This document shows, one piece after another, positions 6,758-53,700 of a stretch of 64,000 nt of DNA. Made by a program: the position numbers and the translations under genes. The stretch lies in NCBI RefSeq assembly GCF_026210795.1, contig NC_089443.1, forward strand, positions 2,356,001 to 2,420,000, written 5' to 3'. The notes under the pieces are model-generated. The model worked only from the letters and a program-made list of their open reading frames with translations. It was not told the origin of the DNA and did not search any database. Within the stretch, counting starts at the first letter, position 1. Every line of letters begins with the position of its first letter. This DNA is from Rhizophagus irregularis (Eukaryota; Glomeromycota; Glomeromycetes; Glomerales; Glomeraceae).

Positions 6758-6765
6758 ACTGTATA

Positions 6766-16878: not shown

Positions 16879-18445
16879 ACAGGGCGGACATCCTCGTATT
16901 ATCACATTTTTGCAGATCATTTTGCCGATCATTTGTTAATTATCTATTCAATATTATCACATAACAAAATCACTATTATGGGTTTTTTTGCAAATTTCTG
17001 TTATACATAAAACTAAAATAATTTGAATTGATCATCTTGAGGGTCAAAATGGCCAAAATTAGCCAAAATTACATCATATAATTAGAAAAATTAAAAGTAA
17101 TTTGATGATACTGCAGCAGCCAGTGATCAAAATTTAATGTTTTATGGCTTGTTGAATTCATCAAATCAAGACGAACATTTTGATTGTAAGTTCATAAATA
17201 TTTACACAAAATTGATTGAGAAATGATATTTTAAAAACTTCTATTTATTATATAAATTATAACAATATGATTGCCAGTATAATTTCGGCCATAACTTTTG
17301 TGTTACCTAAAATTTTACTGTATTACTTTGGCTATTACAGTCAACTCCCTCTATAGTCACTCCCGTTATAGTCACATTCTACTATATAGTCACACCAGTT
17401 GAATGTTCAAAACACTTTATTATTAAAATCTATCCTATATAGTCACAATCTATCTATAGTCACTATCACACCTATCCTCAAAAATCTTATATTAAAAAGA
17501 ACCGTTTATAATCACAGTTATATAAAGAATATATTAAATAACTTGGCATCTAATAATCGTACAAAGATGTATCATAGCTTGTTAGAATCGTCTCACTGAG
17601 ACGAATCGAATGGTGGTAGTTTTATCCTTTTCTGATCACTGGCTGACGAGTTATTCAACAAAATGTTAAACATCGGCATTATAATATTTCTTGATTTACG
17701 TTTACTGCGCCATTTAACATTTTGCTAGATTTCTCGGTACCTAGTGATTGTAAAAAGACGATTTATAGCTCGTTGGAATCGCCTCATCGAGACGAATCGA
17801 ATGGTGGTAAGCTCATCTCTCTGTGATCAATATTGACGGAGTTATTACTTAAAAACCATTTAATATTTTTTAATTTCGGAAATTGATCTAGTGATTGGAT
17901 TTCAATGTATCTTATACCATTAGATTCGTCTCATCAAGACGAATCGAATGGTAGTAAGATCGTCTTTCTAGGATCAATATTGGCAGAGTTATTACACAAA
18001 ATCCATTAATATTTTTTTAATTTCGGAAATTAATCTAGTGATTGGATTTCGACGTATTTTATACCATTAGAACCGTCTCATCAAGACGAATCGAATGGCG
18101 GTAAGATCATCTCTCTACGATTAATATTGGCGAAGTTACGATACAATAAAGTTTTAAGTATAATTCTGGCTAAAATTATGTTAATTTTGGGCCGGAATTA
18201 TGATATACAAATATAAAAAATTTTTTATATAGTCACATCTCTTTATAATCACCAAATATGGACTGTCCCAAATGTGTGACTATAAAGAGAGTTGACTGTA
18301 ATTCTAAAGCTGTTAATCTATAACCCATAAAAGTTTCAAGTTTCGCCTGAAGCTTCTCGGCTTTACGCGCTTAAAGTCTGATATCATCAAATTACTATAT
18401 GATCGGCAAATGATCGGTAAGGTGATATAAGGATGTCCACCCTGT
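16879..18445. mobile_element. MITE with TIR ACAGGGYGGACATCC, containing a pogo MITE
   Basis: The left end reads ACAGGGCGGACATCCTCGTA and the reverse complement of the right end reads ACAGGGTGGACATCCTTATA. Both continue with YGATCATTTG-type similarity for over 50 bases. No coding potential. A 961-bp pogo MITE is inserted in the middle, leaving about 600 bp of host MITE. I could not identify a convincing target duplication. Confidence 0.65.
17338..18298 (+). mobile_element. Pogo-type MITE, 961 bp, complete (copy 2)
   Basis: Termini CAGTCAACTCCCTCTATAGT and, on the right, the complement of CAGTCAACTCTCTTTATAGT, flanked by TA on both sides. Five palindromic blocks built on ACCATTCGATTCGTCTC/GAGACGAATCGAATGGT recur inside. 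CAGTC termini with a TA target are typical of pogo/Tigger-type Tc1-mariner elements. It is non-coding: the 66-codon frame repeated in each copy has no recognisable motif. Nearly identical in length and sequence to the copy at 32736, so recently active. Confidence 0.88.
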
Positions 18446-22542: not shown

Positions 22543-22725
22543 AAGATTTCAGACAATTATATTAAATCTGGTATATATAAAATGGGGTAAATTTTAAAGA
22601 AAAATTTTGAAAGGTGGTATGTAAAAACTGGGTTTTTTTAAAAAATGTGGGGGTAAAATGAGGTAACTAAAAAAATAGTGATAGGATTTTTATGGTTAAA
22701 TTTCTATAATTTTTAAAGTAGCATA

Positions 22726-23529
22726 CAGTCAACTCTCTTTATAGTCACACATTTGGGACAGTCCATATTTGGTGATTATAAAGAGATGTGACTATATAAA
22801 AAATTTCTTATATTAGTATATCATAATTCTGGCCAAAAATTAACATAATTTTGGCCAAAATTATACTCAAAACTTTATTGTATCGTAACTCCGCCAATAT
22901 TAATCGTAGAGAAATGATCTTACTACCATTTGATTCGTCTTGATGCGACGAATCTAATGGTATAAAATACAATCACTAGATCAATTTCTGAAATTAAAAA
23001 ATATTAAATGGTTTTTAAGTAGTAACTCCGTCAATATTGATCACAGAGAGATGAGCTTACCACCATTCGATTCGTCTTGATGAGGCGATTCCAACGAGCT
23101 ATTAATTGTCTTTTTACAATCACTAGGTACCGAGAAATTTAGCAAAATGTTAAATGGCGTAGTAAACGTAAATCAAGAAATATAATAATGCCGATGCTTA
23201 CCATTTTGTTGAATAACTCATCAGCCAGTGATCATAAAAGGATAAAACTACTACCATTCGATTCGTCTCAGTGAGATGATTCTAACAAGCTATGGTACAT
23301 CTTTGTATGATTATTAGATGCCAAGTTATTTAATATATTTTTTATATAACTGTGATTATAAATGGTTTTTTTTAATATAAGATTTTTGAGGATAGGTGTG
23401 ATAGTGACTATAGATAGATTGTAACTATATAGGATAGATTTTAATAATAAAGTGTTTTGAACATTCGACTGGTGTGACTATATAGTAGAATGTGACTATA
23501 ACAGGAGTGACTATAAAGGGAGTTGACTG
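22726..23529 (-). mobile_element. Pogo-type MITE, 804 bp (copy 3)
   Basis: CAGTCAACTCTCTTTATAGT and, at the other end, GAGTTGACTG, flanked by TA (22724-22725 and 23530-23531). Reverse orientation relative to 17338 and lacking one internal palindromic block of about 130 bp. Confidence 0.87.
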
Positions 23530-23585
23530 TATTATAATTGGGGTAAATTTCACATTTTAATATCGTATACTACATTATAAAAGTG

Positions 23586-23720
23586 TGTCCGCAGTATTGC
23601 AGATATATATTGCAGATTTTGAAGTCTAAAAATCTGCAATTCTGCAATACCATAATTATCCAATTTATCGCAATTAATGCTTGTAGTGCAATTCAATTAC
23701 ATAATTGCAGATCAAAAAAA
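23586..23720. repeat. TGCAG/TGCAAT palindromic repeat patch
   Basis: Short repeats such as AAATCTGCAATTCTGCAATA resemble the subterminal repeats at both ends of the 12.5 kb element (29380-29580 and 41780-41860), suggesting relatedness of the two elements. Confidence 0.5.
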
Positions 23721-23759
23721 AATTTTTTTTATTAAAGTGTTTTTTTTTTTTCTTTTTTT

Positions 23760-24900
23760 TAGGTGATTCCTTGGAAACTAGGAAATAGACGGCTTGAAAT
23801 TTACCAGTAAGTTTTATTTATTTTTATTTTTTATTAAGGATGTTTATTAACGTTTTTTTTTTATTTCTTTTAGAATGGACTCCTTGGAAACTGGAAATGG
23901 AGTCTTGACCGGTTTGAAACTATACCGGTAAGTCATTTTTATTTTATATTTATAATACTTTATGGATAGCAATATTAACACCAATATTATTTTTATTTTT
24001 TATAGCAGCACTTCGAAATGGTTAATTTAAGTAGACTACCAATTTTTTTTTGTTTTTGCTTATATAGAAGTTTAATGTAGGTACAAGTTGAATAGGAAAT
24101 AACTCGTTTAAGATTACTTCTGATGGTAAATGGTTTAAATCATAGCCATCATGAAAGCTAAAGATCTGATTGAAAGAAGAAATTTTGAGTAACAACAAAA
24201 GTAAATTTTTTGAATAGTATAAATGGGTTCTGTGCTAGGAAAATCGAGGTACGAAAGGCGCAGTATAATTTGAGATAAACAATGATAAACAATAGCGTTA
24301 TACAATCCAGGCATTTTTTGCCAATAAAAAATGGTTCTAATTTTAGGTATGATGATCTACATCACATGATTTAGTTTTGTATTACAGAGAATTTTGCTAT
24401 CAATTTAACCTTCCGAAACATTGTTACACTAATTTTTTTTTCTTTAATGGCTTGGACGACTTGAACCTAAACCAAAAAATTTTTGGTAGGTGTTGCGTCA
24501 TTTTTTGTGTTTGTTCATTTATTTTTTTGCTTTCTTTCATTATTATTAACTATTATTTCTTTTTTTTATAGGTTTATAGACTTTCAGAGCTTTTCGAATG
24601 GCCTCCTTTTTTATTGGAACGGTATATTTCTTTTTTTTTTTGTTTTTTTTTTTATTATAGAAATGGTACTAACATTCTACTTTTTTTATAGGCTGGACCT
24701 CTAAAAGTCTAAACTTTCCAGAATAGGTTATTGTGGGAACGGTGCTGGCGTTCCACTTCAGAAGTTTTTTATAAAAAGAGGAAAGAAATACAGGTACATC
24801 TTTACTTATGGGAGTATAATATTCCATATAATAAAACATCATTACTTTTTATTTTTTGGGGGGGTTTATTTTAATGAAAATTTGTTTATCTCATGAAACA
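23760..24900 (+). repeat. Leader array of exon-like units upstream of the DUF7869-like gene
   Basis: Repeated acceptor-exon-donor patterns are seen. Examples: TTTTTTAG, GTGATTCCTTGGAAACTAGG, then a donor GTAAGT near 23807; TTTTAG, AATGGACTCCTTGGAAACTGG and GTAAGT (23873-23930); TTATAG, GTTTATAGACTTTCAGAGC and GTATAT (24570-24620); then further acceptors near 24692, 24760 and 24900. They sit between the element's left arm and the ORF at 25141 in the same orientation, so spliced 5' leader exons are likely. Confidence 0.55.
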
Positions 24901-25140
24901 GCCCGTGAAAAAGGAAAGGAAATACTTTATGAAGCATAATACTCCGAATCCTTATGGAAATTCTTTCTTTTTTAAGCTCTTTCTATTTTTTTTAATAAAA
25001 AGGATTACTTTTTTTTATTTTTTTGTTTTTACTTTTACTTTTAGAGTTTATTTTAATAAAAATATTTATTTTACAGATATTTTTTATTTTTTAACGAAAT
25101 TTTTTTGGTTTCTTTTTTAATAAAATTTATCACAATTTCA

Positions 25141-29580: not shown

Positions 29581-29684
29581 AACTATTTTTTTTTTAATAA
29601 AATATAATTACTACTAAAAAAAATATATTTCTATTTATTATTAATAAAAAAAAAATTATTTTACATAAAAAAAAATTAAAAGAA

Positions 29685-29910
29685 AACGCCGGAACTTATA
29701 GTTCTAGCGTTTTAATTAAAAAAAAATTAAAAGAAAATGCTGGAACCTATAATTCTGGCATTTTTACATAAAAAAAAATTGAAAAAAAATACCAGAACTT
29801 TAGTTTCAGCGTTTTTACATAAAAAAAAATTAAAAGAAAATGCCAGAATCTATAGTTCTGGCGTTTTTACATAATAAAATTAAAAGAAAACGCCAAAACC
29901 TTTATCAGAA
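29685..29910 (+). repeat. About 63-bp tandem repeats, left array
   Basis: Four units of AAAAGAAAACGCCGGAACTT followed by an inverted half AGTTCTAGCGTTTT, each a hairpin separated by A-runs. Mirrored by about six units at 41383-41760. Confidence 0.75.
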
Positions 29911-30699
29911 AATTTTTTAAGATGCAGAACTGCAGAGATCTGTAAAATTAGCAGATCTCTGCATTTTTTATGTGAATTTATGCAAAAGTCTGCAATTTTG
30001 CAGATCTCTGCTTTTTAATTTTTACAAAATTTTGCAATAATCTGCAATTTTGCAGATTTCAGCTTTTTTTTATGTGAATTTATGCAGAAGTCTGCAATTT
30101 TGCAGATTTCAGCTTTTTTTTATGTCAGAATATCAATTTGATTTGCGATTTCATCACACAATTAACTCTTAACACTTTTAACACTTAAACTTTGATTAAC
30201 TTTTAAACTTTGATTAAAACTTGATTTATTACTTAAATAATTTTTTTATGATACTCTTTAAAGAAAAAAATTTACAAGACTTTAAAGAAATAATTTTTTC
30301 TACAACACTTTTTAAATTTTACAAAATAATTTTTTCTATCACCCTTCAAAGAAAAAATTTTATGACTTTAAATAAATAATTTTTCTATAATACTTTTTAA
30401 AGAAATAATCTGTTAAAGATTCCAAAGAAAAAAAATTTGTTAAAATTTTTATTATTAAGCTTCGAAGCTTGTCAGAAAAATTTTTTTTTTTAAAAAAAAT
30501 TTATTTACGAGGTTCGGGCAAATTCGTCCAACATTCGGCACATAATCTGCAACATGCATATTGGACTAAAAAGACATCAGACTCCATTATCTCCTACTTT
30601 CATAAAAAACATTTTACTTCGTAAGCAGAAGTACTCCATTTCGAAGCTATTTATTCCTTCAAATTTTTTTTATTAATATTATTTAACAAATGTTAGCAA

Positions 30700-31490
30700 A
30701 TGTTCATTTTATTAGTCCAGAACACCAAAGGTATATTCCAGACTCTCCATTTTTAAAGGTAACCTTCGAAATTTGTATTTTTCTTTTTGTTTCAAGTCCA
30801 GGACTCCCATTTTGAAAGTTACCTTCGAAAAAAATGTTATTCTTATTAATTTTATTAACGAACATTGTTAACGTTTGTTTATTAAGTTCTGAATGCCAAA
30901 GTACAGCTCTGGACTTTATTTTGAAAGTTGGAGTTGAAACTTCAGTAAATATTTTTATTTTTTAGGTCCTGAATGCTGAAGTACGGCTCCAGACTTCATT
31001 TTTGAAGGTAAAAAAACCTTCAAATTTTTTTTTTATATTTAATTTTAACGAATATCACTAACGTTTATTTTTATGTTTTTAGGTCCTAAGCGCCAAAGAA
31101 CGGCTCCGGACGTTTATTCAAAGGTAAAAATCTTTGAAATATTTTTTTTTTTATATTTTAACTTTAACGAACGTTAATTACGTTCGTTTTTGTATTTTAT
31201 AGGTCCTGACGCCAAAAATGGCTCTGGACTTTACTTTGAAGGTAAAACCTTCGAAAAAAAAATATTTTGTTTTATTAACTTTATTGACGAACGTTAACTA
31301 ACGTTTCATCTTATTTTTTTAGATAAAGGAAGCCGAAACTGAGTTTCAGGCTCCTATATCAATGGTGAAACAAACCTTCAAAAAAAAAATCAATTTTTTT
31401 TAAAATTAATTTATATTGACGAACGTTAACTAACGTTTCATCTTTTTTTTTAGTTAAAGGAAGCCGAAAGACAAGCTGTGTAATAACCGA
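30700..31490 (+). repeat. Exon/intron-like unit array, first part
   Basis: About seven units. In a typical unit an acceptor TTTTTAG precedes a 39-42 nt exon-like segment beginning GTCCTGA and ending TTTGAAG. A donor GTAAAA follows. The intron-like segment begins with CCTTCAAA, complementary to the exon end, and contains AACGAACGTTAACTAACGTT, a palindrome that includes CTAAC. The series stops in the middle of a unit at about 31489 and its continuation is at 38137. Confidence 0.7.
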
Positions 31491-31852
31491 AAATACAATA
31501 AAATAGAATAAGAATAAATAATTAACTGACGGGTAAATAATTAGCCGATAAAATTATATTTATAGTTTAGTTTAGTTTAACAAGATAGTCATATGATAAT
31601 AGATCTTTTATTTTCTTAATTTTTATTAGAAAAAAGATAGTCATATTAGAAATATTTTTCTTAAAATGTATAAATACAAGTGGATTTCAATAGGAAATTC
31701 TGCAGTTCGAGTTTGAAGTTCAATTTTAAAAAAAAAAATAAATAAAAATAATATTTTGGTAAGAAAATAATGTTTTGTAATTTTTGTAATTAATTTTTAT
31801 TTTATTTCAAACCAAGCATAGATATTATTCGAACTCAACATGTCGGTGGTAA
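31491..31852 (+). mobile_element. Possible LTR-like block
   Basis: Starts TGTAATAACCGAAAAT and ends GTCGGTGGTAACA (TG...CA). A TATA-like TATAAATACAAG lies about two-thirds in. A related block at 46321-47187 starts TGTAATCATAG and ends GTTGGTGATAA, with TATAAAAAGAGG at a similar relative place. No primer-binding site or matching second LTR found, so only a suggestion. Confidence 0.35.
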
Positions 31853-31875
31853 CATACGATATTTATTTTAATATC

Positions 31876-32735
31876 CTCACAGGTCGAAAGAGCACCATTG
31901 TCCAAAATTCAAAAAATGCAAATTCCACATTTTTCTGGAAAATGGTGGGAAATTGTGGAAAATGCTGCATTACGCCGAGCAATTTTTTGAAATAGCATTG
32001 TTACAACATTGTCTGATTTAGCAAATTTTATGAAAATTTGGGAAAATACTACATTATATCTCAAATGTAACATTTTGTAACATTTCATAACATTGTTATA
32101 ACATTGTCATTAAAATCAAATTTTGCTTTTTTTTTGTCAAATGTTCCAATTTTCTTACAAATGGTGCATTTTTATGAAAATTCCACATTTTATCTCAAAT
32201 GTAATAACATTTCATAAAATTGTTATAACATTGTCAATTAAAATTAAATTTTGCTTTTTTTTTGTCAAATGTTCCAATTTTCTTTCAAATGGTGCATTTT
32301 TATGAAAATGCCACATTTTATCTTCAATGTGATATTATTGTAACAACATTTCATAAAATTGTTGTAACATTGTCAATTAAAATCAAATTTTGTCAAATAT
32401 TCCGATTTTCTGGCAAATGGTGTATTTTTTTATGAAAATTCTATATTTTCTGTCAAATGTTGCATATTTTCAGCAAATTTTACGTTTTTTTGGCCAAATG
32501 TTTCATTTTTGTCAGAATGTTAAAATGTTACATTTTTTTTTGAAAATGCTCAATAATATGGCATTACACTGGAAAATGTAGCATTTCACCAAATTACACT
32601 AAAAAGCATCACAATTATCACATTTTTTGGAAAATTCCACATTACATTAAATTACACTAAAAAATGTAGCACTATACTAGATTATATAGCATTACACTAA
32701 AAAATACTGTAATTACACTAGACAATGTAGCATTA
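31876..32735. repeat. Simple AT-rich block of ACATTTT/AAATG repeats
   Basis: Degenerate repeats of CATAACATTGTTATAACATT, TTCCACATTTT and GCATTACACTAAAAAATG. Direct near-duplicates of about 125 bp occur at 32110 and 32245. Frames here are open by composition only. Confidence 0.6.
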
Positions 32736-33696
32736 CAGTCAACTCCCTCTATAGTCACTCCCGTTATAGTCACATTCTACTATATAGTCACACCAGTTGA
32801 ATGTTCAAAACACTTTATTATTAAAATCTATCCTATATAGTCACAATCTATCTATAGTCACTATCACACCTATCCTCAAAAATCTTATATTAAAAAGAAC
32901 CGTTTATAATCACAGTTATATAAAGAATATATTAAATAACTTGGCATCTAATAATCGTACAAAGATGTATCATAGCTTGTTAGAATCGTCTCACTGAGAC
33001 GAATCGAATGGTGGTAGTTTTATCCTTTTCCGATCACTGGCTGACGAGTTATTCAACAAAATGTTAAACATCGGCATTATAATATTTCTTGATTTACGTT
33101 TACTGCGCCATTTAACATTTTGCTAGATTTCTCGGTACCTAGTGATTGTGGAAAGACGATTTATAGCTCGTTGGAATCGCCTCATCGAGACGAATCGAAT
33201 GGTGGTAAGCTCATCTCTCGGTGATCAATATTGATGGAGTTATTACTTAAAAACCATTTAATATTTTTTAATTTCGGAAATTGATCTAGTGATTGGATTT
33301 CGATGTATCTTATACCATTAGATTCGTCTCATCAAGACGAATCGAATGGTAGTAAGATCGTCTTTCTAGAATCAATATTGGCAGAGTTATTACACAAAAA
33401 CCATTAATATTTTTTTAATTTCGGAAATTAATCTAGTGATTGGATTTCGACGTATTTTATACCATTAGAACCGTCTCATCAAGACGAATCGAATGGCGGT
33501 AAGATCATCTCTCTACGATTAATATTGGCGAAGTTACGATACAATAAAGTTTTAAGTATAATTCTAACTAAAATTATGTTAATTTTTGGCCGGAATTATG
33601 ATATACAAATATAAGAAATTTTTTATATAGTCACATCTCTTTATAATCACCAAATATGGACTGTCCCAAATGTGTGACTATAAAGAGAGTTGACTG
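32736..33696 (+). mobile_element. Pogo-type MITE, 961 bp, complete (copy 4)
   Basis: Same length as copy 2 and almost the same sequence, flanked by TA on both sides. The near identity of copies at distant sites points to recent transposition. Confidence 0.88.
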
Positions 33697-34600
33697 TACA
33701 CTAAAAAGTACCACAATTATCATATTTTTTAGAAAATTTCGCGTTATACTGGAAAATGTAACATTATGCTAGAAAATGCGGAATTGCACTAAAAAACGCA
33801 GAATTGCACTAAAAAACACAAAAAAAATACTACAATTATACAGGATAACGTAGCATTACACTTAATTACATTAGATAATTTTTATTTATTTGTAAAATTA
33901 CGGACATTATTAAATTTATAATATTTATATTCTAACGCATTATTTAACATTAAATTCACATTGTTAATATTAACAATGTATCAACACGATGTGTTGTTTA
34001 ATTTATACGAAACCTTACTACTGAAAACTCCCTCTTTTTGTCACTATAAACAGGCGGAGGGAGCAGCAATGGCTCTCCCCCTATAGGTACTTTATGGCCT
34101 CTACCTGTTTACAGAGGAGGGCTTTTCGTAAAGTTATTAGATAGATATATATATATGTATATATATAAGTATATATATACATCTATCAAAAAAATTATAA
34201 TAAAAAAAAAAAAAATTTTTTCGGGGAAAATGCCCCTATTTATACAAAAATATATATCACGTGTATCACGTGATATTACTAATAATTACTGCAGCAGGCG
34301 CAGCTTCAGCTGCGCCTATAGCGAAAAAAAATTAAGCATTTTTAGCAAAAACTTAATTTTTTTTTCTCACGTCCCCTTTCTTTCGATATTTCTTTCTCAC
34401 CTTTCCTTTCCCCTTTCCCTTTCGTTCTCCCCCTCCCTTTTTCGTTTCATTTTTCCCTTTCCCTTTTGTTCTTCCTCCCTTTTCGTCCTTTTCTCTTTCA
34501 TTTTTAACTTTCCCTTTCCACTTTTCCTTTTCGTTCTTTTTTTTCCCTTCCCTTCCCCTTTTATCGTAAATTAGAAATATCAGAAATTTCCTTTCAGAAA
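33697..34600. other. Non-coding stretch with GC-rich hairpins and C/T-rich tract
   Basis: At 34044-34130, GGCGGAGGGAGCAGCAATGG pairs partly with CTCTCCCCCTATAG, and CCTCTACCTGTTTACAGAGG forms a hairpin. An ATATAT tract (34145-34185), TATCACGTGTATCACGTGATA and GCAGGCGCAGCTTCAGCTGCGCC (34291-34313, palindromic) follow. A polypyrimidine tract of CCCTTTCC motifs runs 34370-34560. These could be promoter elements of the array that starts at 34600. Confidence 0.45.
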
Positions 34601-36800
34601 AACAAAAGGGTAAGTTTTGAATCGTTTGATTCGAAACTTTAATATTTTTTTATTTTTTAGGAAACGTTTCTAACGTTTCCTATATCTTCTTTTTTTATAG
34701 GTCTTTTCGTCGTATTCAACTTGGAAAAACGAAACGGTAAGTTTCGAGGCGTTTGCTTTTTAAAAAATATTTAATTTAGGAAACATTACTAACGTTTTCA
34801 ATAATTCTTTTTTTTTATAGATTTTTTTGGCGTACTCGACTTAGGAAAACGAAATGGTAAGTTTCGAGGCATTCGCCTCGAAACTTTTTTTCTAAATTCT
34901 TTTTAAGAAACATACTGACGTTTTCTTTCTTTTTTTTTTATAGATTTTTTGGTGTTTTGACTTTGGGAAACGAGAAACTGAAAGGTAAGTTTCGAAGCAT
35001 TTCGCTTCGAAACTTTTTTTTTAAAAAAAAATTTTTTTTAATTTTTTTTGTAAGGAAACGTTTCTAAGTTTCCTTTTTCTTTTTGTAGGAACGCCGGACG
35101 TTTGGATAATGTATTTTGAAACGAACCGGTAAGTTTTGCAACGAATTGTTGCGAAACTTAAATTTTATTATTTTTTTTTTAAGAAACGTTAACTAACGTT
35201 TCTTTTTTTTATTTTTTGTAGGTTCTGGACGTTTGGATAGTGAAATTCGAAACGAGCCAGTAAGTTTCGCAACATGTGTTGCGAAACTTTATTTTATTAA
35301 TTTTTTTTTTAAAGAAATGATACTAATGTTTCTTTTTTTCCTTTTTTTAGATTCTGGACGTTTGGATGATAAATTTCGAAATGAACTGGTAAGTTTCGCA
35401 ACATTGTGTTGCGAAACTTTATTTTATTAATTTTTTTTTTAAAGAAATGATACTAACGTTTCTTTTTTTCCTTTTTTTAGATTCCAGACGTTTGGATGAT
35501 GAATTTCGAAACGAAGGTAAGTTTTGCAACATTGTGTTGCGAAACTTGAATTTTATTGTTTTTTTTTAAGAAACGTTAACTAACGTTTCTTTTTTTTTAT
35601 TTTTTGTAGGTTCTGGACGTTTGGATAGTGAAATTCAAAACGAGCCGGTAAGTTTCGCAGCGTGTGTTGCGAAACTTTATTTTATTAATTTTTTTTTAAA
35701 GAAACGATACTAAATGTTTCTTTTTTTCCTTTTTTTAGATTCCGGACGTTTGGATGATAAATTTCGAAATGAACTGGTAAGTTTTGCAACATTGTGTTGC
35801 GAAACTTTATTTTTATTTATTTTTTTTAAGAAACGTTAACTAACGTTTTTTTTCTTCTTTTTGTAGGAACGCTGGATGAAATTTTTGGGTGAAAGGTAAT
35901 ATTTTTGTTTTTTTTTGTTAATAATTTTTTCTACGAAACGTTAACTAACGTTTCAGTTTTTTTTTTATAGATCCACGGCTTCGCCTCCAGGATGAGATTT
36001 CGAAGGTAAATATTTACCTTCGAATCAATTTTGTTTTTTTTTTGTTTAACGAAACGTTAGTAAACGTTTACTAACATTTCGTTTATCTTTATTTTTGTAG
36101 TTGATTTTCTGGTCGCCTTCTGTACGGAAGAATTTTGAAGGTAAATATAAGAACCTTCGAAGTTTATTTGTTTTATTTACAATGAAACATTTACTAACGT
36201 TTCGGTTTTCATTTTTTAGGTTCCAGGGTGCCGTTTCAACATTTCGAAGGTATTAGAACTTCGAAATTATTGGATTTTTGTTATGTAACAAAACATTGTT
36301 TAAAGTTTCATTTATTTATTTTTTTTTTTTGTAGGTTAAAGGAACGGAAAAATGAAAGGGAAAGGTGAAGACAAAAGGGGAAAGAGAAAGGGGAAAGAGA
36401 AAGGAAAAACCGAAATGGAGCGGGTGAACATTTCGAAGGTATACTTCAAAATGTTTGTTATACCTTCGAAATGTTTGTTTTTTATTTTCTTTTTTAACGA
36501 AATGTTTATTAACGTTTCGTTTATTTTTTCTTTTTTTTTAGATTCGATGGCTCCTTGGACATACCGGAGTTCAATATTTCGAAGGTATATTATACTTTGA
36601 AATACTTTTTTTATTTTTATTTTTCAATGAAACGTATATTAACGTTTCATTTTTTTTTTCTTAGGTTTGGTGGTTCTTGTTCTTGAATGTATGGAATTTA
36701 ACATTTCGAAGGTATATAACTTTGAAATGTTTTTTATTTTGATTTTTTTCAATGAAACGTATATTAATGTTTCATTTTTTTTTCTTTTTTAAGTTTTCAC
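34600..36800 (+). repeat. Exon/intron-like unit array 2 (about 17 units)
   Basis: Exon-like segments of 29-47 nt, for example ATTCTGGACGTTTGGATGAT..., alternate with introns of about 75-100 nt. Typical donors are GTAAGTTTCG. The first 30 intronic bases form a perfect stem (for example GTTTCGCAACATTGTGTTGCGAAAC at 35391-35419). A second palindrome, GAAACGTTAACTAACGTTTC, contains CTAAC. Acceptors are T-rich and end TAG. One unit contains an A/G-rich insert complementary to the C/T tract at 34380-34560. Confidence 0.72.
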
Positions 36801-37209
36801 TGGCTTCTACTTCAGCATCGGACATTTGATACATGAATGAATTAGAGGTGCAGATTATCCATAGATCATTGGATATTTGATGAATATTGATTATCGTTAA
36901 ATAATAATAATTGTGCATTTATTAATAAATAATATTATAATAAATTATGTGAAATTATTAAACCAGTGATTTAAATTGTCATGGCGTTTACACTAAATTG
37001 TTTAAAATTATTACTAAATTTCGCTCAATTGTCCGAAATTATTACAAAATTTCACTCAATTATCTGAAATTATTGCAAAATTTCACTAAATTGTCTCTGA
37101 AAATGTTGCATTTATACCGTTTACACTCAATTGTCCAAAATCGGTAAAACATTTTTACTCAATTGTCTGAAATTATCCTAAATTTCATTAAATTATTCAA
37201 AAATTTAGC

Positions 37210-37910
37210 TAAAATTTACCAAAAAAATGCCACAATTTTCCACAATTTGCATTACGTTTGCACAACATTGCTGAAAAATTCACCTAAATTTTCAACAATT
37301 TACATAACATTACTAAAAATACACTACAATTTACCACAATTTGCATTACGTTTGCATAACATTACTAAAAATTTACCTAAATTCACAATAATTTACATTA
37401 CATTTACATAGCATTACTAAAAATTTACCTAAAATTTACCCAATTTGCATTACGTTTGCATAACATTACTAAAAATTTACCTAAATTCACCACAATTTGC
37501 ACTTCATTTGCATAAAATTACTAAAAATTTAACTAAATTCACCACAATTTGCATTACATTTACATAAAATTACTAAAAATTTAACAAAATTCACCACAAT
37601 TTGCATTTCGTTTGCATAGCATTACTAAAAATTTAACTAAATTCATCACAATTTGCATTACGTTTACATAAAATTACTAAAAATTTAACTAAATTCACCA
37701 CAATTTGCACTTCGTTTACATAACATTACTAAAAATTTAACTAAATTCACTACAATTTGCACTTCGTTTACATAACATTTCTAAAAATTTAACTAAATTC
37801 ACCACAATTTACATTACGTTTGCATAAAATTACTAAAAATTTAACTAAATTCACTACAATTTGCACTTCGTTTGCATATCATTACTAAAGATTTGCCTAA
37901 AATTTCCCAC
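37210..37910 (+). repeat. About 60-bp tandem repeats
   Basis: About 11 units built on CACAATTTGCATTACGTTTG, CATAACATTACTAAAAATTT and ACCTAAATTC. No coding sense. Confidence 0.8.
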
Positions 37911-38136
37911 AATTTAATGATAATTTACTGAAAAATTTCTCAACATTTGAATTAGGAATTCTGTAGGAATTCCGCCATTTTGACAAAATTTGCCAAATTG
38001 TAAGACCTCCATTATCCCAAAATTGTAACACAATTTACCCCAATTTACTGGGATAATTCTCAATTTGCCAGAAAAATTCCAGGCAAATTTTGCGACAATG
38101 ACATCTGTTCGACCTGTGCCTATGGGCGGCGTGTCA

Positions 38137-40930
38137 CAGCCAAACTTCCATATCGAAGGTAAAACCTTCAAAAAAAAATATATATATTTTTTTTAACTTT
38201 ATTGACGAACGTTTACAATGTTTGTATTTCCTTTTTTTTTAGGTAAAGGAATCCAAAAACGAGTTTTGGGCTCCTATATCGAAGGTAAATTTAACCTTCA
38301 AATTTTTTTTCTTTTTATTTAAATGAACGTTTACTAACGTTCGTTATTCTTTTTTTTAGGTAAAGGAAGCTGAAAGAACTTCTATATCGAAGGTAAAATC
38401 TTCAATTTTTTTTTATTATTTTATTTAATAAACATTACTAATTCTAACGTTCATTTTTTTACTTTTCGTAGGTATAACCGTACAAGAAACCAAAAGGCAG
38501 GTTCCGGTCTCCTATTTCGAAGGTAAGGCTTCAAAATTTATTTTACTTTTTTTCTTTATTTTAGCGAAACATTTACTAACGTTTCAGCTTTCTTTTTTGT
38601 AGGCCTACGGCTTTCCGGAGCTTCATTTCAAAGGTTATATCCTTTATATCCTTCAAAAATATATTTTTTTATTAGTTTTTTTTTACGAACGTTAACTAAT
38701 GTTCATTTTCATTTTTGTAGGTCCAAGACGCCAAAGGTACGTGTCTCGTACTTGATTTCAAAGGTAAATAACTTTCGAAAAAAAAGGGAGTCTTTTTTTT
38801 TAACGAACGTTCACTAACATTCGTTTTTCTCTTCTTTATAGGTCCAGGATGCCGAAGGACTTTAATTTTGAAAGTAAACTTCAATTTTATTTTTTATTTT
38901 TTATTCTTTTTTTGTTTATTTTAACAAAACGTTATTAACGTTTCAATTTTTTTAGATTTCCAGCTCTCCCGAACTCTTCTGGACTGAATTTCAAAAGTAT
39001 TTCTTCGAAATTCTTTTATTTCTTTGTTTTATTTTATTTTTGTAAAAGAACGTTAACATTCTTTATTCTTTTTTTTTTAGATTTTCGGCTCTCTGGTTCT
39101 AGCCTGGACAGAATTTTCAACATGGTTAGTTTCGTAACGAACTTTTCATTACGAAACTAATTTTTTTTTTATTTTATTTAAACGAAACATTACTAACGTT
39201 TCGATTTTTTTTTCTTTTTCTGGTAGCCATCTGGATTAGACAGAATTTCGAAGGTGAAATTTAAAATTATTTTATTTTTATTTTTCATTTGAATGAAATA
39301 TAGACTAACGTTTCAATTTTTACTTTTTGCAGGTTTACGGCTTCTGGATAGAATTTCGAAGGTAAAATTCCTTTGAAATTTTTTCATGTTTTTTTTTATT
39401 TAGCGAAACGTTTTCTAACGTTTCATTTTCTTTGTAGGTCATCATCATTCCCAAAAAGAATTTTAAAGGTAAAACTTCAAAATTCTTCATTTTTTTTTGT
39501 TATTTTTAATTTGCAAAATGCTTACTAACGTTTCAGTTGGTTTTTTTTTGTAGGATTTTTGTTCTCCGGCTCCTGAATGAAAGAATTTTGAAGGTAAACT
39601 TCGAAATTCTTATTTTTTTATTACTTTACAAAACGTTTACTAACATTTCAGTTGCTTTTTTTGCAGGGTTTTGGTTCTCCGGCTCCTGGACAAAAGAATT
39701 TTGAAGGTAAACCTTTAAAATTCTTTTTTATTTTTTATTTTATTTTTCTTTAACGAACGTTCTACTAACGTTCATTTTTCCTTTATTTTTTAAGTTCCGG
39801 CTCCATTTGAAAGAACTTCAAAGGTATAATACTTCAAAGTTTCTTTTTTTTTAATTTTCTTTAACAAATGTTTTACTAACGTTCTTTTTCTTTTATTTTT
39901 TAGGTCCCGTCTCTCATTTGAAAGAATTTTGAAGGTAATGACACTTCGAAGTTCTTTTTTTTAATTTTCTTTAACGAACGTTCTACTAACGTTCATTTTT
40001 CCTTTATTTTTTAGGTTTCAGCTCCATTTGAAAGAACTTCGAAGGTATAACACTTCAAAGTTTCTTTTTTTTTAATTTTCTTTAACGAATGTTTTACTAA
40101 TGTTCATTTTCTTTTATTTTTAGGTCCCGTCTCTCATTTGAAAGAACTTTAAAGGTAATGACACTTCAAAGTTTTTTTTTTAATTTTCTTTAACGAACGT
40201 TCTACTAACATTCATTTTTCCTTTATTTTTTAGGTTCCGGCTCCATTTGAAAGAACTTCAAAGGTATAATACTTCAAAGTTTCTTTGTTTTTAATTTTCT
40301 TTAACGAATGTTTTACTAACGTTCATTTTCTTTTATTTTTTAGGTCCCGTCTTTCATTTGAAAGAACTTTGAAGGTAATGACACTTCGAAGTTCTTTTTT
40401 TAATTTTCTTTAACAAACGTTCTACTAACATTCATTTTTCCTTTATTTTTTAGGTTCCGGCTCCATTTGAAAGAACTTCGAAGGTATAACACTTCAAAGT
40501 TTCTTTTTTTTTAATTTTCTTTAACGAATGTTTTACTAACGTTCATTTTCTTTTATTTTTTAGGTCCCGTCTCTTATTTGAAAGAACTTTAAAGGTAATG
40601 ACATTTCAAAGTTCTTTTTTTTAATTTTTTTTAACAAACGTTTTACTAACGTTCGTTTTCTTTTATTTTTTAGGTCCCGTCTCTCATTTGAAAGAACTTT
40701 AAAAGTAATGACACTTCAAAGTTCTTTTTTTTAATTTTCTTAAACGAACATTTACTAACGTTCATTTTTCTTCTATTTTTAGGTCCTGGACTTCTATTTG
40801 GAAGAACTTCGAAGGTAATAATACTTCGAAGTTATTTTTTTATTTTTCTTTAACAAATGTTTTACTAACGTTCATTTTTCTTTATTTTTTAGATCCTGAG
40901 ATTTTATGTCAAACATTTCGAAAGTAATAA
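38137..40930 (+). repeat. Exon/intron-like unit array, second part (about 25 units)
   Basis: Continues the array broken at 31489. Exon-like segments of 27-51 nt end TTYGAAG or TTYAAAG, directly followed by GTAAWN and an inverted CTTCRAA. Introns hold AACGAACGTTYTACTAACGTTC (branch-like TACTAAC) and end TTTTTTAG. From 39780 to 40620 two exon types alternate (TTCCGGCTCCATTTGAAAG and GTCCCGTCTCTCATTTGAAA), giving a dimeric higher-order repeat of about 217 bp. Confidence 0.75.
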
Positions 40931-41159
40931 CTTCGAAATTTGTAACAAATATCTCTGATTTTCTATTTTGTTTTTTGTTTGTTAGAATCGAACCAACTAT
41001 AACAATGTTCCAAACCATTAACAACATGTAAATGTGCAGTAAAAAGATGATGAATAGCAATGACTAGTAATAGATTTCAATTGTATTTGTAAACTTGTTA
41101 ATATATAATAAAAAAGTAATTTTGATTATATAAATAAATTAGTAATTAATGCAATAAAT

Positions 41160-41380
41160 TAATTTGTATTATTGTGACGCAGATTTTTACTGAAAAAAAT
41201 TGCTGAGATATTTCGAAGGTTTTTTATTTAAAAATCTGCGCAAAACTTTGTTATTTATAAAATCTGCGCAGTTTTTTATTGGATTTTTCTTCTAATATTT
41301 TGCGCCAAGGTATAAGATTTGCGCAGATATAATTTCTGAAAATCTGCGCAGATCTGCTTCCCAAAAAATTTTTCGATGTT
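41160..41380. repeat. CTGCGCA/AAATCTGCGC repeat patch
   Basis: Repeated AAAATCTGCGCAGATCTGC-type motifs, parallel to the GCAGATCTCTGCA repeats at 29925-30115 on the other side of the element. Confidence 0.6.
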
Positions 41381-41382
41381 AG

Positions 41383-41770
41383 TTCCAGCGTTTTTATTAA
41401 AAAAAAATTAAAAGAAAATAACAGAACTTATAGTTCTAGCATTTTTATTAAAGAAAACGCTGGAATCTTAGTTTCGGCGTTTTTATATAAAAAAATTAAA
41501 AGAAAAATGCCAGAACCTATAGTTTCAGCGTTTTTATATAAAAAAAATTTAAAAGAAAATACCGGAACTTATAGTTCTGGCATTTTTACATAAAAAAATT
41601 AAAAGAAAATGCCAGAACCTATAGTTCTGGTGTTTTTATATAAAAAAATTTAAAAGAAAATGCTGGAACCCATAGTTCTGGCGTTTTTATTAAAAAAATT
41701 AAAAAATATGCTGGAAGTAATAGTTCCGGCATTTTTGTATAAAAAAACTATTAGTTCTGGTGTTTTTTGT
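41383..41770. repeat. About 63-bp tandem repeats, right array
   Basis: Six to seven units of AACCTATAGTTCTGGCGTTTTT with A-rich spacers, the same family as 29685-29910. A frame at 41751-42065 is an accident of this array plus the transposase segment. Confidence 0.75.
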
Positions 41771-43533: not shown

Positions 43534-44797
43534 TAGAGTTTTGAACAGAGTTGACCAAATTCAGGTAACCTGACAGGTTGACCTGAATTTTTCAGGTCAG
43601 GTTTAGCAATTACAATAGGACCCTGGACATCACATATATAACTCACATTTGAGTTTTAGCAAATTCAATCAAAATTAGGTTAAACTTATAATTTTAGAGA
43701 GAGCAAATTGATTGAAAATCAATTAATAGTTATAATTATGAGTTTTAGCAAATTGTATTGATTTTACAAAGTCATATTTTATATTTGAGCAAATTGGTAC
43801 TTTTTTTTAAATTTAACTTATCCTTTGTTTTTAACTTTATAAATAATATTTTTAAAAATATTAGTTTTAGAGTCCGGGTCATATTTTGGCCAAAATTAAG
43901 TATAATTCCGGCCAAAATTAAGCATAATGCGGGCCAAAAACCGTCCGTTTAGTTTCGCAACATTTTATTTTTTAATAATTATTTACTTAATTTATTATTT
44001 TTATTAATTATTATTTTATCTATAATCTACATATTTTAATTATAAAAATTGGCAGTTTAATTTATATTAATCATTTATTTTTTTATTGATAATAAAAAAA
44101 AAGATTATTAACTCATATTTTGAGTTTTAGCAAATTAGTATAGATTTGAAATGTGATAATTTGATTTTTAGCAAATTAGGTCTATTTTAGCAGGAGCAAA
44201 AAGTACTTAAATTCATGCAGATCAGTTATGAGTTATATATGTAATGTCCAGGGTTTTATTGCAATTCAGCATCAGTTCAGATTGTAACATTAGTATAACC
44301 TGAATGACCTGTTGACCTGAAACTATGATTTTATATAATAAGTGAGTTATGGTATTATAATTCACTTTTTATATTAATTTTATATGATAAAAGTGAATTG
44401 CGATATTGAAATTCACTTTTTTATACCGATTTTATATATAAAAAGTGAATTGCGGTATCGGAATTCACTTTTTTATATCATTTTTATATATAAAAAGTGA
44501 ATTGCAGTATCAGAATTCACTTTTTTATATTGATTTTATATTTAAAAAGTTAGTTGCAGTATTGCAATTCATCTTTTTATATGATTTTAATATAAAAAAC
44601 TGAATCGCAATATTTCAAAAAAATGTTTTGCACCATTTTTTTTGATATTTTAATATAAATCCTGAAAATTTTCAGGTTTCAGTTCAGGTTAAGTCAAACA
44701 GATAATCTGATATAACCTGACCTGACCTGACCTGAAAAAAAATTTCAGGTCAGGTTTATCAATTAACCTGACCTGACCTGATCTATTCAGAACTCTA
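43534..44797. mobile_element. 1.26 kb MITE with CCTGACCTGA repeats, 8-bp perfect target duplication
   Basis: Termini TAGAGTTTTGAACAG and, in complement, TAGAGTTCTGAATAG. GATATGAT flanks both ends (43526-43533 and 44798-44805). Subterminal repeats of ACCTGACCTGACCTG. The interior holds tandem hairpins of GTGAATTGCGGTATYGRAATTCAC (44335-44560). hAT-type non-autonomous element. A second copy begins at 63750. Confidence 0.83.
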
Positions 44798-45039
44798 GAT
44801 ATGATTAGCAAAATTTTAAAAACAATATTTAAAATCCACTTTTTTTCCTTAACAGTTAATAATTTATCAATTAAATTTTATTAATTCACTTTACATATTA
44901 AAAATTATATATATAGATATTAAATTTAATATTTATCTATCTACTATCTACTATTCACCATTCATCACTATCCACCATCTATTATTCTTACTGACCCAAT
45001 AAAAGTCTAATCCATAAATTTTTTAAATAAAAAAATTGG

Positions 45040-46320
45040 GTTTGAAAGATCAAAACTTACCTACCATCCAATAAAGTTCAAAATTCAACAAAAATCTAAA
45101 GAAAACTAAAAAAAATAAAAAATGGTTAGTATACCGATTCTTTAACAAAAAAATAAAATTTCAAAAATACTTTATCTGGAATATCAGCATTTATGTTGGA
45201 GTATTTCCTATATAAAAAAATAAGAAAAAAATGGTTATTTATTAAAAAATGTTTTTAAAGAAATTTTGAAATATTTGTTTTGAAATTTACCTGAAATATT
45301 AACGTTCAAGTTGGAGCTGAATTCTTACAAAAAAAGATGTTTTTATTAAAAAAACATTTTTAAAAAAGTTTTGAAACATTTGTTTCAAAACTTACCTGGA
45401 ATATCAGTGTTCACATTAGAGCTGAATTCCTATATAAAAAAATTAAAAAAAACATTTTTTTTATTAAAAAACATTTTTAAAGAAATTTTGAAACATTTAT
45501 TTCAATTGGCATCCATGTTGAAGTTAAATTCCTATATAAAAAAAGAAAAAAAATTTTTTATTAAAAAAAACATTTTTAAAAAAGTTTTGAAACATTTGTT
45601 TCAAAACTTACCTGGAATATCAGTGTTCACATTAGAGCTGAATTCCTATATAAAAAAATTAAAAAAAAACATTTTTTTTATTAAAAAACATTTTTAAAGA
45701 AATTTTGAAACATTTATTTCAATTGACGTCCATGTTGAAGTTAAATTCCTATATAAAAAAAGAAAAAAAATTTTTTATTAAAAAAAACATTTTTAAAAAA
45801 GTTTTAAAACATTTATTTCAAAACTTATCTGAAATATTAGTGTTCATATTGGAGTTGATTTCTTATATAAAAAAGTAAAAAAAAAAGGTTTTTTAATGTT
45901 AAAAACGGTTTATTAAAAAAAAGTTTCAAAAATCTTTCAAAACTTACCTGAAATATCAGTATTTACACTAGAACTGATTTCTTAAATAAAAATAATAGAA
46001 AAAAACATTTTTTTATTAAAAACATTTTATTAAAAAAATTTTGAAACTTTAGTTTCAAAACTTTAGTTAGAAAAATGGTATCTATGCCAGAATTGATTTC
46101 CTAAATAAAAATAATAAAAAAAAACATTTTTTATTAAAAATATTTTATTAAAGAAGTTTTAAAACTTTAATTTCAAAACTTTATCTCGAATATGGTATTT
46201 ACACTGGAACTGAATTTCTATATAAAAAATAATAAAAAAATGTTTTTTATTAAAAATGTTTATTAAAGAAAGTTTCAAAAATTTTTTTAAAACTTTACCT
46301 AGAAAAAAGTATTCACGCTG
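45040..46320 (-). repeat. Intron-like unit array on the minus strand
   Basis: Minus-strand units: acceptor TTATATAG, a 34-nt exon-like GAATTCAGCTCTAATGTGAA...TTCCAG, donor GTAAGTTTTG within the stem GTTTTGAAACAAATGTTTCAAAAC. A 216-bp higher-order unit is repeated almost exactly at 45368-45583 and 45584-45799. Introns carry AAAAATGTTTTTTAATAAAA palindromes instead of the GTTAACTAAC form. The array resumes at 47190-47540 after an insertion. Confidence 0.6.
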
Positions 46321-47189: not shown

Positions 47190-47540
47190 TGGATACCTTT
47201 GTTTATCGACAGATAGCAGACGTTGGTGATAATGCCAGAACTAATTTTCTATTAAAATAAATAAAATAAAATATTTTTTAATTAAAAAATATTTTTTTTT
47301 AAAATAGTTTTAAAAATCTTTTGAAACTTTACTTAAGGAAATAGTATTTATACTGAAACCATTTTCTGCAAAAAATATAAAAAAAAAATGTTTTTAGCTA
47401 AAAACATTTTTTTTTAAAGAAAGTTTCAAAACTCTTTCGAAACTTATTTTCTTTATAAAAAGTATTAAAAAAAAATGTTTTATACATAAAAAATATTTTT
47501 TTAAAGAAAGTTTTGAAACTTTTTTGATTTAATAAAAAAT
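47190..47540 (-). repeat. Continuation of the minus-strand intron-like array
   Basis: Units with CAGAACTAATTTTCTATT and GAAACTTTAC patterns as in 45970-46320, more diverged. Confidence 0.5.
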
Positions 47541-50722: not shown

Positions 50723-53700
50723 ATGTCTTTTAAATGGTACACAGCACTTGTTACTTTACAGAAACTTACCATTTTTAATCAATATAGAATCGATATCGTT
50801 AAGTTTATCTTAACGGTATCATTTTGATATCATTTTGATATCATTTCAATATCGATTTAATATCGATACGATATCGAAATGATAATTAAAATGATATCGA
50901 AATGATATCTTTAAATTAAACTTAAAGATGTTGTTTCGATATTATTTCTATTATCATTTCGATATCATTTCGATATCGATTTAATATCGAAATGATATCG
51001 AAATGATAATACTTTATTTCGATATCGTATCGATATTAAATCGATATTGAAATGATATCAAAATGATATCAAAATGATATCACTTGAAAACTTAAAGTTT
51101 CTGTAAAGTATACAAGATTCTAACAATCAAAAAGCTTTTAAACGAACAAATAGCAGTTGGATAGTAGTTGATTATTCTTGTGGCCTTTGTGTTTTAGATT
51201 TACATAATAAATTAAAAGCATTTGATTTTACATCTGAAGTAACAAAAAATATCTCTATTGCTGAAGAAAAAAATTATAATGCTGGTTACCTATTTCTTCG
51301 CAATCAAGAGGAAGTGGATCATTCATTAATACCATTATTACCTGGATATATTGTTTTTACGTCTGCAGGTAAAAAAGAAAGTTTAATTTTTCTTTTATGT
51401 AAATTGCCATTAACAATATTATGTTTAATGCTTACAGGTAAAAAACGATTCAAGTTGTCAATTTTAGAAAGTAATAATCAATTACTTTTTTATTGGAAGG
51501 AATTTGGTTCTGATACGTCATATGTTAATAGAAAGGCACAAGGCTTTGAACAAGTTGCATTTTATTATATGTTAAAGAAATATGGATTTGTTACTACTAA
51601 TTCTATTCAATATGTTCTTGGTCTTAATATTCCAGAGATAATTAATGAGTTAAAACAACTTGTTTATGAAAAATTTGTGATTATTTCTCAAGTACAAGAA
51701 CCGGAAAATTCAAAGTTAATTAAGGCCAAAAAAAAGGAAGAAACATTACGCCGTAGTTTAAAAAGATATCAGGAAAAAATTGATGAAATAATTTATGAAA
51801 ATAACAAAAATAGGAAAAATATTATACTTTATGGAATTCAAATTGAATCTGACAGAAAAAGGTTATCCCCAAAAAAAGCACAAGTTTTAATGTTAAATAA
51901 TATGGAGAATAAAAAAACAATTTATTCTCAAAACAGAACTATTAAAACACTAAAAGAAAAAGTTTCTTTAAAAAAATAAAACAGATACTAGTGTATTTAC
52001 AAATAATAAAAAGGAAATTCAGAAACTGGTAGAAAATGAAATTAATGAAAAAAAACTTGGATCAACTATTTTTATGAGTATTTCACATTATCTTTCCATT
52101 CTTCTTTCGTTACCTTGTTCTGATTGTCATGATATTATAGTATCTAATCGAACATTTTATACTACAGTAGTAGGGTTCAATTTAACATGTATTATTAAAT
52201 GTCTTCTTTGCAAAACATCAATGCAATATTCAAATGAAGATTCAGACATAAAATATTCTCATTTAATTGCAGGAGCAACACTTACTGGTAGGATGAATAG
52301 AAATTCCTTTCAAACTGCATTAGCGACAATTGAAGTAACAAACCAATGTAGTAAACGATCTTACCATAATTATCAGAATCACATGTATAAACCCATTATT
52401 GAAAGCGCAAAACAAAGTAGTAAAACTATTTTACTTGAAATTCTTGATCATTTGAAAGAAATTTATTTACTAAAACAAGAAAAAGTATTGCCTATAGGTT
52501 TTGATTGCTCATGGTCATATTCTCGCAATGCACATCAAGCTAGTGTATTTAGGAAATATTCCTGATATGTAGAACTAGCGACATGATTCATAAGTCAAAC
52601 AAACTAACTAAATCCAAATCTACTTTTAGGTTATAATTATCAGCCTGTAATTGCATTCCACACAATAGAAAATTCTCGTTCAGTAAAATATGATGATTCT
52701 TCAAAAATTGTGCATAAAGAAAATTTTAATGGAACTTCTAGGCAAATGGAGCATGCGATCTTATTTGCATTATTAAATGACATAATGCCAATTTTAAAGG
52801 AAACTGATTTTACTCTACATATATGTGTAGATGGTAATCTTGAGACTAACAAAACCCTGGCATGTATTCTTGCAGTAAGCCGTATATTTGCTGATCTAAA
52901 GCATGTTAGCAAAAATATTCAAAAAAATCTAAGTAAGCAACAATTCTCTTACATAATTTTAACTTACTTTCGTTACTAATATTTTATAAAATATTGATAG
53001 TGAAAAAACAACATTCACGATGGCATTCCTTTGAATAACACATAATGAGGTACTTCAACTCCTGTATGTTTAGTGCTGGTCTCCAAAAAAAAAAACAATT
53101 AAGATGATGCACCAACTGAAGAGGAAACAAGATATGTACAAGTAGAAGGTTTAATTAGGCATTTACTTGATGATCATAGTATATATTGGAGTGATGTTTG
53201 CTAGTTGAAAGATAATCCAGAATTACAGTTACAAGGCCCAACTCTAAAAAATTATACTCAAGCTGAAATAGATAATTTTAGAAATGTTATTACAACAATT
53301 TTTCGCATACCAGTTGGCCAAGGTATTGTAACTACATTTCGTACCTCTCATAATGAAACATTTAACAAAAAAATTCTGAAATATTTGAATAAGCGAATTG
53401 ATTATTGGGCTTCATACAGTGCTCAGCATGTATTAGCTGTGATTGATCAAAATGATGGATTAGATGCAATGATATCAAAAGTCCGTGTAGTAGCTACTGG
53501 AGTGGATTTTTCATATTCTGATATATGCAATATATTAAAATTTGTTCAGGAAAGATCTCGACAGGTTATTAAAAATCGTAGTGCAATTCAACAAAAAAAT
53601 GAAGCGAGAAAAGAACAGTATGTAAGTGAAAGAAAAGAACTTGCTGGCTTTGATTTTGATAAAGTAATTGTTTATTTAATTTGTAAGATTTGTTAGATTT

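Follow-up and report, generated by a model that had tools for sequence, protein, structure and literature searches.

Tandem arrays of micro-exons and short introns carried by two families of non-autonomous transposons in Rhizophagus irregularis

The locus and its intron arrays

We analysed a 64,000-nt window of the Rhizophagus irregularis genome (RefSeq assembly GCF_026210795.1, contig NC_089443.1, here contig C15, positions 2356001-2420000; coordinates below are those of the window) and searched 146.7 Mb of genome in 32 contigs for its relatives. The window holds two arrays, A and B, of tandem units, each made up of a T-rich acceptor (TAG), an exon of ~27-51 nt, a donor of GTAAG, GTAAA or GTATA type and an intron, mostly 70-100 nt long, that has a CTAAC- or TTAAC-like branch point. 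Both lie on the forward strand within transposons bounded by terminal inverted repeats (TIRs), one nested in the other.

Arrays of such units had been described across 34600-40930 in an earlier note on this DNA. We scored them with a splice-chain parser that rates runs of acceptor, short exon, donor and intron, and that seeks exactly that order. Chains of 27 introns (38000-41182, score 193.8, outermost introns probably false) and 18 introns (34610-36966, score 123.2, last intron probably false) were recovered, compared with a best chain of 43.5 in 40 dinucleotide-preserving shuffles (1-kb blocks) of 30001-41400 and 25.3 on the opposite strand of the same interval. The units are thus confirmed where the earlier note had placed them, and the arrays at 38144-40985 and 34610-36793 are real and not due to chance. 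What had been described as a single stretch proved to be two arrays in two nested elements, with a minisatellite between them at 36991-37916 (Tandem Repeats Finder, TRF). A further chain of nine introns at 30621-31882 (score 50.9) includes several false introns and barely exceeds the shuffles. Searches of the window with Rfam (gathering threshold) and ARAGORN returned no match.

The 3' part of array A (38144-40985), delimited by the parser, the sequence, TRF and the shuffle control, with its last acceptor set by eye, contains 24 parsed micro-exons (27-51 nt; 38243-40923), separated by introns of 73-102 nt; within it, 39732-40892 repeats with a period of 220 bp in 5.3 copies (TRF). Weaker and partly decayed units at 30621-31454, identified by the parser and by paralogues, make up its 5' part. 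In five paralogues (L001, L002, L003, L006 and L009) the position equivalent to 31474 joins that of 38144 without interruption, and the units at 30.6-31.5 kb and 38.1-40.9 kb are therefore halves of one array, the intervening DNA of the window being a later insertion. Array B (34610-36793), recognised by the parser, its folds and its relatives, has ~16 internal micro-exons of 29-104 nt, although one exon parsed as 74 nt is probably 40 nt long. We also observed that the 5' part of array A in paralogue L001 (L001:158-1500, contig C29) contains eight successive 39-nt exons, the donors of which lie in near-palindromes (GGAGGTA...TACCTCC) that place a donor-like site on both strands.

Two nested transposons carry the arrays

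Array A is carried by element A (29903-41378, forward strand), a TIR transposon split by the nested insertion and defined by its TIRs, TT/TT flanks and the ends of its paralogues. The element begins with TATCAGAAAATTTTTTAAGATGCAGA... and finishes with ...CCCAAAAAATTTTTCGATG; its sharp 3' end, ...CCCAAAAAATTTCCCGATG, is common to 10 other loci, with altered last bases in L007, and the reverse complement of that end opens the element; L001 and L002 likewise have the TIR at their 5' ends. Allowing up to three mismatches, the TIR pattern matched the genome 162 times, a number that takes in relatives without arrays, compared with no matches for the reversed pattern. The array itself is also repeated, with at least 92 DNA matches to a query of 39734-40174 when 40 of 251 candidates were scored. 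Element A shows a short target-site duplication: 2-bp flanks were identical in 8 of 11 A-type elements by script, which had set the start of L001 wrongly upstream (its true start gives TG/TG), whereas the flanks of L019 and L020 did not match. Four TIR-bounded copies (L018-L021) measure 4.46-5.12 kb and each contains 26-35 parsed introns, some of which are surely false. No transposase of its own was found in L018, the one array-A element checked, where the longest stop-free stretch is 94 codons. Element A is a non-autonomous TIR transposon with the intron array as its cargo.

The 16-bp core of the element A TIR recurs in longer elements (L015-L017 and L022) that have transposase-like open frames and best parser chains of 29.5-34.2, the level of the shuffles. 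L017, the sole member of this group in which a Plavaka-domain open reading frame was scanned, matches Plavaka PF18759 (E=1.2e-14). Judged by the TIR match, family A is probably mobilised by Plavaka-type elements. To either side of element A (29659-29901 and 41379-41747) lies a 50-bp minisatellite with the inverted repeat AGAACCTATAGTTCTGG, into which the element seems to have inserted.

Array B is the cargo of a second non-autonomous TIR transposon, element B (31878-38118, forward strand), a CACTA-like element with TIRs CACAGGTCGAA...TTCGACCTGTG and CCT/CCT flanks. It is nested in element A via a solo repeat that resembles a long terminal repeat (LTR), is bounded by TG...CA and has its 5' part at 31479-31877 (forward strand) and its last bases at 38119-38136. 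A similar start to this LTR-like repeat occurs at 10 other places, compared with one for the reversed control, and the copies L047 and L048 end in GGGCGGC[AG]TGTCA without an insertion of element B. Ends of the form GCTGTG... had been considered for element B and were rejected, TGTAATAACCG being part of the LTR-like repeat and CACAGGTCGAA the true TIR. Element B itself contains a small element (32738-33696, no strand assigned) with a 147-bp tandem repeat at 33174-33536 (TRF); this small element is missing from the B copies L023-L026 and L028, the alignments of which skip from about WB 1267 to 2227.

The TIR pattern of element B matched the genome 162 times, with a single match for the reversed pattern. 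When 132 DNA matches to array B were grouped by hand into 40 loci, 29 of these, on contigs C1-C19, could be judged for exact TIRs: 21 lie between convergent B TIRs, six have one TIR and two have none, the 21 being a lower bound as mismatched TIRs went uncounted. Array-B elements carry ~9-18 parsed introns. Two long pairs of B TIRs were examined, one of which (L050) encodes a Transposase_21 domain above the Pfam cut-off (E=1.7e-9), the match in the other (L051) falling below it; 3-bp flanks are identical in two of three elements (CCT/CCT in the window and ATT/ATT in L050, with L051 unmatched). Family B is thus probably mobilised by CACTA/EnSpm-type elements. Arrays of one design are therefore carried by two families with different TIRs and transposases. 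Plavaka has been placed within the wider CACTA/CMC group (PMC11075540), and these differences consequently do not settle the distance between families A and B.

Predicted hairpins in the array introns

Folding was compared with dinucleotide shuffles in 60 of 305 introns from family A, 60 of 101 from family B and all 27 from a third, decayed array (array C, described below), with further sampling of up to 80 introns per family. On average, array introns are predicted to form one hairpin at the 5' splice site and another around the branch point. Mean folding z ranged from -1.6 to -3.9 at the donor and from -1.7 to -3.8 at the branch point; it was ~0 in mid-intron and -0.05 to -0.53 at exon starts. 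Eighteen host TCP-1 introns put through the same scorer (two of them weakly picked) showed no hairpin, with a mean z of +0.15 and the branch point judged in eight. In array B, 16 of 18 listed donors fall within a predicted hairpin or at its base, the exceptions being 35896 and 36848. The donor is mostly at the hairpin base in the first ten units (GTAAGTTTCG...CGAAACTT); in the last units of array B and in array A, the exon end and the intron together make a hairpin that has the donor in its loop or stem top.

Exact patterns of both hairpins were common genome-wide: the branch-point motif pattern was found 430 times against 13 for its control, and the donor hairpin pattern 350 times against three, palindromic places being counted on both strands. 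In a partner-swap test, the branch-point hairpin paired better than swapped arms (p<0.05) in 9 of 12 copies. The corresponding figure for the donor hairpin was 5 of 12 copies, and none of the five A copies, so that covariation is seen for the branch-point hairpin but not for the donor hairpin in A.

Partial preservation of splice motifs between copies

Constraint was measured in 16 disjoint pairs of copies, each site being annotated in one member of a pair and then read in the other; an all-pairwise version was dropped because it counted related copies many times. The per-base test and the first whole-motif test count every pair twice, and a strict version keeps the two directions apart. With both directions pooled, per-base change was 0.025 at the TAA of branch points vs 0.106 at other intron TAA, 0.054 vs 0.174 at acceptor AG and 0.039 vs 0.060 at donor GT. 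Kept apart, the branch-point TAA was destroyed in 14 of 184 cases vs 191 of 1009 elsewhere (p=7.5e-5), and in the other direction in 10 of 183 vs 227 of 1088 (p=5.7e-8); for the acceptor TAG, the counts were 31 of 226 vs 46 of 160 (p=4e-4) and 35 of 230 vs 48 of 162 (p=7e-4). Comparison of copies thus indicates that, in families A and B, acceptors and branch points keep their motifs more often than matched controls do. Among the seven youngest A copies, private changes were likewise rarer at the branch-point TAA (1/462 vs 11/882).

Absence of a maintained reading frame

As the earlier note had stated, exon lengths follow no multiple-of-three rule, being spread over the classes modulo 3 as 182/180/175 in 537 exons from 31 parsed chains, many of which are copies of one another. 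Such an even spread proves nothing alone, as coding exons need not be multiples of three. When the spliced open frame of each chain was compared with those of permuted exon orders, the fraction of permutations reaching it ran from 0.03 to 0.94, and was 0.05 or less in 2 of the 31 chains. L002, which is 93% identical to L001, is open in a different frame over the same stretch. Outside CG/TG/CA and homopolymers, the rate of change was higher in exons than in introns for A (0.057 vs 0.038, p=2e-5) and B (0.091 vs 0.068, p=0.02), the difference in C not being significant. These results support the view, also taken in the earlier note, that the arrays are non-coding, with no maintained frame. Among 550 distinct exons, TAA occurred at 0.64 of expectation (z=-12), compared with 0.94 for TAG and 0.95 for TGA; TAA being the core of the branch point, its depletion agrees better with an avoidance of false branch points than with a reading frame.

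A third array and other repeats in the window

Array C (45205-46305, reverse strand) is decayed and was recognised from its sequence, TRF, folds and relatives, and its introns resemble those of A and B in their two-hairpin pattern; further unit-like stretches occur at 47249-47451. The best minus-strand chain there (44662-45611) scores 40.5, a level that the shuffles also reach, and array C consequently rests on tandem repeats, folds and relatives. It has 110 DNA matches in the genome, mostly 66-79% identical, and is a member of a third repeat family. Intron-like units whose acceptors are T-rich form a weak, short run at 23807-24794, possibly another decayed array; the surrounding chain (22663-24901, 15 introns, score 64.8) looks false in large part.

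Elsewhere, a small repeat with AGTCACTCCCGCTAT/GTGACTATAAAGGGA-like ends is found at 17339-18138, 32738-33696 and 63186-63554, and also at 6724-6760 and 23492-23528; three of its places, one of them inside element B, hold a similar 147-bp tandem repeat in 2.5 copies. Repeats of GATATCGAAAT and ATTTCGATATC form a block in both orientations at 50817-51082, and a long open frame with an RNase H domain at 3164-5200 probably belongs to a non-LTR retroelement.

Interpretation of the arrays

A non-autonomous TIR element needs nothing but its ends to move, and splice motifs preserved in its interior therefore ask for a reason. The reading that we favour, with modest confidence, is that the arrays are non-coding transcription units on non-autonomous TIR DNA transposons, kept for their spliceability. 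On this reading, the arrays would be transcribed as well as spliced, and selection would have kept the capacity to be spliced. A precursor RNA spanning an array would lose ~10-35 consecutive short U2-type introns and yield a short RNA of joined micro-exons without a reading frame, and the predicted hairpins may make the folding and splicing of each short intron independent of the unconstrained exons.

Such a densely intronic transcript might be treated like that of a host gene, and so escape a surveillance aimed at transposon RNA that is unspliced or poor in introns. In Cryptococcus, transposon transcripts on which spliceosomes stall feed RNA interference. In human cells, intron-containing transgenes resist repression by HUSH, even without splicing (PMC8770142), and R. 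irregularis is reported to have 40 AGO-like genes and higher expression of transposable elements in colonised roots (PMC11075540). That escape through dense introns is the benefit conferred by the arrays is a hypothesis, and we regard it as doubtful. A further step, for which we propose the term 'intron shield', seems more doubtful again: two transposon families with different TIRs and transposases would carry self-folding intron arrays, acquired by exchange or convergence, whose only job is to be spliced, with the exons as disposable spacers and an RNA that passes as intron-rich host RNA and escapes silencing.

Several observations weigh against selection for spliceability. Preservation of the donor GTA was weak (16/242 destroyed vs 34/280, p=0.037; in the other direction 19/242 vs 25/271, p=0.64), the longer branch-point motif TAAC reached significance in neither single direction (p=0.079 and 0.24), and sign tests by copy pair, counting sites below control, were modest (acceptor 11/14, p=0.057; TAAC 10/12, p=0.039; donor 10/15, p=0.30). 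Per-base private changes in the seven youngest A copies (GT 0.017 vs 0.015 and AG 0.025 vs 0.013 in controls, taken as equal) were as common at donors and acceptors as in controls, so that copies seem to drift after insertion and any real selection acted on the line of copies that continued to transpose. Array C shows a higher rate of change at donors than in the control (0.139 vs 0.071, p=0.04) and a rate at branch points that is no lower, and its acceptors were better kept solely in the pooled test (p=0.042). The depletion of TAA in exons may have another cause, TTA also being depleted (0.68) and CAG enriched (1.39). No spliced retrocopy, which would have served as proof of splicing, was found with two spliced-exon queries, which gave single-exon matches alone; matches that seemed to run past exon ends were checked in three copies, which had kept the intron. 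A minimal intron with splice sites gave no protection from HUSH in the human report (PMC8770142), making that parallel a loose one.

A rival reading is a DNA-level satellite, in which one ancestral intron-exon unit was amplified in tandem inside transposons and spread along with them, leaving splice signals as unused relics. The clear tandem structure with periods of 110 and 220 bp, the unconstrained private changes at donors and acceptors of young copies, the weak donor constraint and the decayed donors and little constraint of array C all speak for it. We nevertheless consider it unlikely, as acceptors (which lie in neither hairpin) and branch-point TAA are kept above matched controls over A and B, and as exons have diverged within an array in which donor, branch point, T tract and AG still follow one another, albeit as read by a parser that seeks this order. 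Structured subterminal repeats are frequent in TIR transposons, and units of the arrays commonly contain two near-palindromes, so that the hairpins might serve transposition or replication and hold splice motifs by chance; the position of the acceptor outside both hairpins, its preservation in both directions of the strict control and the order of motifs kept in A and B make this very unlikely.

Introner-like amplification, which the earlier note had put forward, would have self-copying single introns piling up in a dispensable locus, and it gains some appeal from fungal introner-like elements and sister stwintrons, which have also been described as symmetrical or hairpin-forming (PMC8469720). 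We give it scant credence: the repeat unit includes an exon, TIRs and target duplications bound a mobile entity of ~4-6 kb that holds the whole array, and no copy with an exon minus its intron appeared among the spliced-query matches. The note's other suggestion, a spliced non-coding unit amplified in tandem, is supported in part, for the arrays are non-coding, exon and intron were amplified together and acceptor and branch-point motifs are kept above context-matched controls; the units would be spliced on the favoured reading. Less credible still is a protein-coding micro-exon gene, an SP7-type repeat effector or transposon protein with fast-evolving exons. More frames per exon are open than in shuffles (about 1.2-2.2 vs 1.1-1.6), and the eight 39-nt exons of L001 lie in an open stretch of 148 codons that amounts to a 13-residue repeat, but spliced frames are as a rule no longer than permuted ones, L001 and L002 disagree in frame, exons outpace introns in change and TAA is depleted where TGA and TAG are not. 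An upstream ATG, moreover, meets a stop within 4-6 codons in the array copies checked by eye, although in the window it stays open for ~40 codons.

Relation to known systems and significance

The arrays resemble introners (PMC9860276, PMC4457414) in tying mobile DNA to spliceosomal introns, some introners having TIRs and target duplications and the fungal ones, like the symmetrical stwintrons (PMC8469720), being described as symmetrical. Unlike introners, they combine introns with exons in arrays within a longer TIR element, and the mobile unit does not end at splice sites. Array-A elements are tied to the Plavaka transposons described in R. irregularis (PMC11075540) by the TIR core that they share with PF18759-encoding elements, but differ in having no transposase in the copy checked; the main text of that report does not contain 'intron' or 'splic'. 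The CAC start of the B TIR and the Transposase_21 of TIR-matched longer elements are those of CACTA/EnSpm, with a 3-bp duplication seen in two of three elements; in array-B elements, however, introns with micro-exons occupy the place expected of a coding region. The SP7-like effectors known from Glomeromycotina (PMC11333574) are likewise repeat-built, fast-evolving and from the same fungal group, yet their genes are described with coding repeats and, ahead of the first of these, a conserved intron, and an SP7-like gene was rejected here on gene structure and the absent frame. A literature search by title and opening of the abstract, covering sources other than preprints and most subscription journals, found, among the papers listed, no account of intron arrays borne by transposons and none pairing 'Rhizophagus irregularis' with 'micro-exon', 'Rhizophagus' and 'microexon' leading to Rhizoctonia.

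Two-thirds of the transposable elements of R. irregularis are unclassified (PMC11075540), and array elements may account for part of these repeats; the arrays could also mislead gene annotation. With their kept splice motifs and drifting exons, they offer material on which to find the sequence and hairpin features that define short introns. If the arrays are spliced, splicing itself, and not a protein or an RNA sequence, would be the selected product of a mobile element, and the arrays would make it possible to ask, in a natural setting, if fungi resemble human HUSH (PMC8770142) in relying on introns to distinguish self from transposon.

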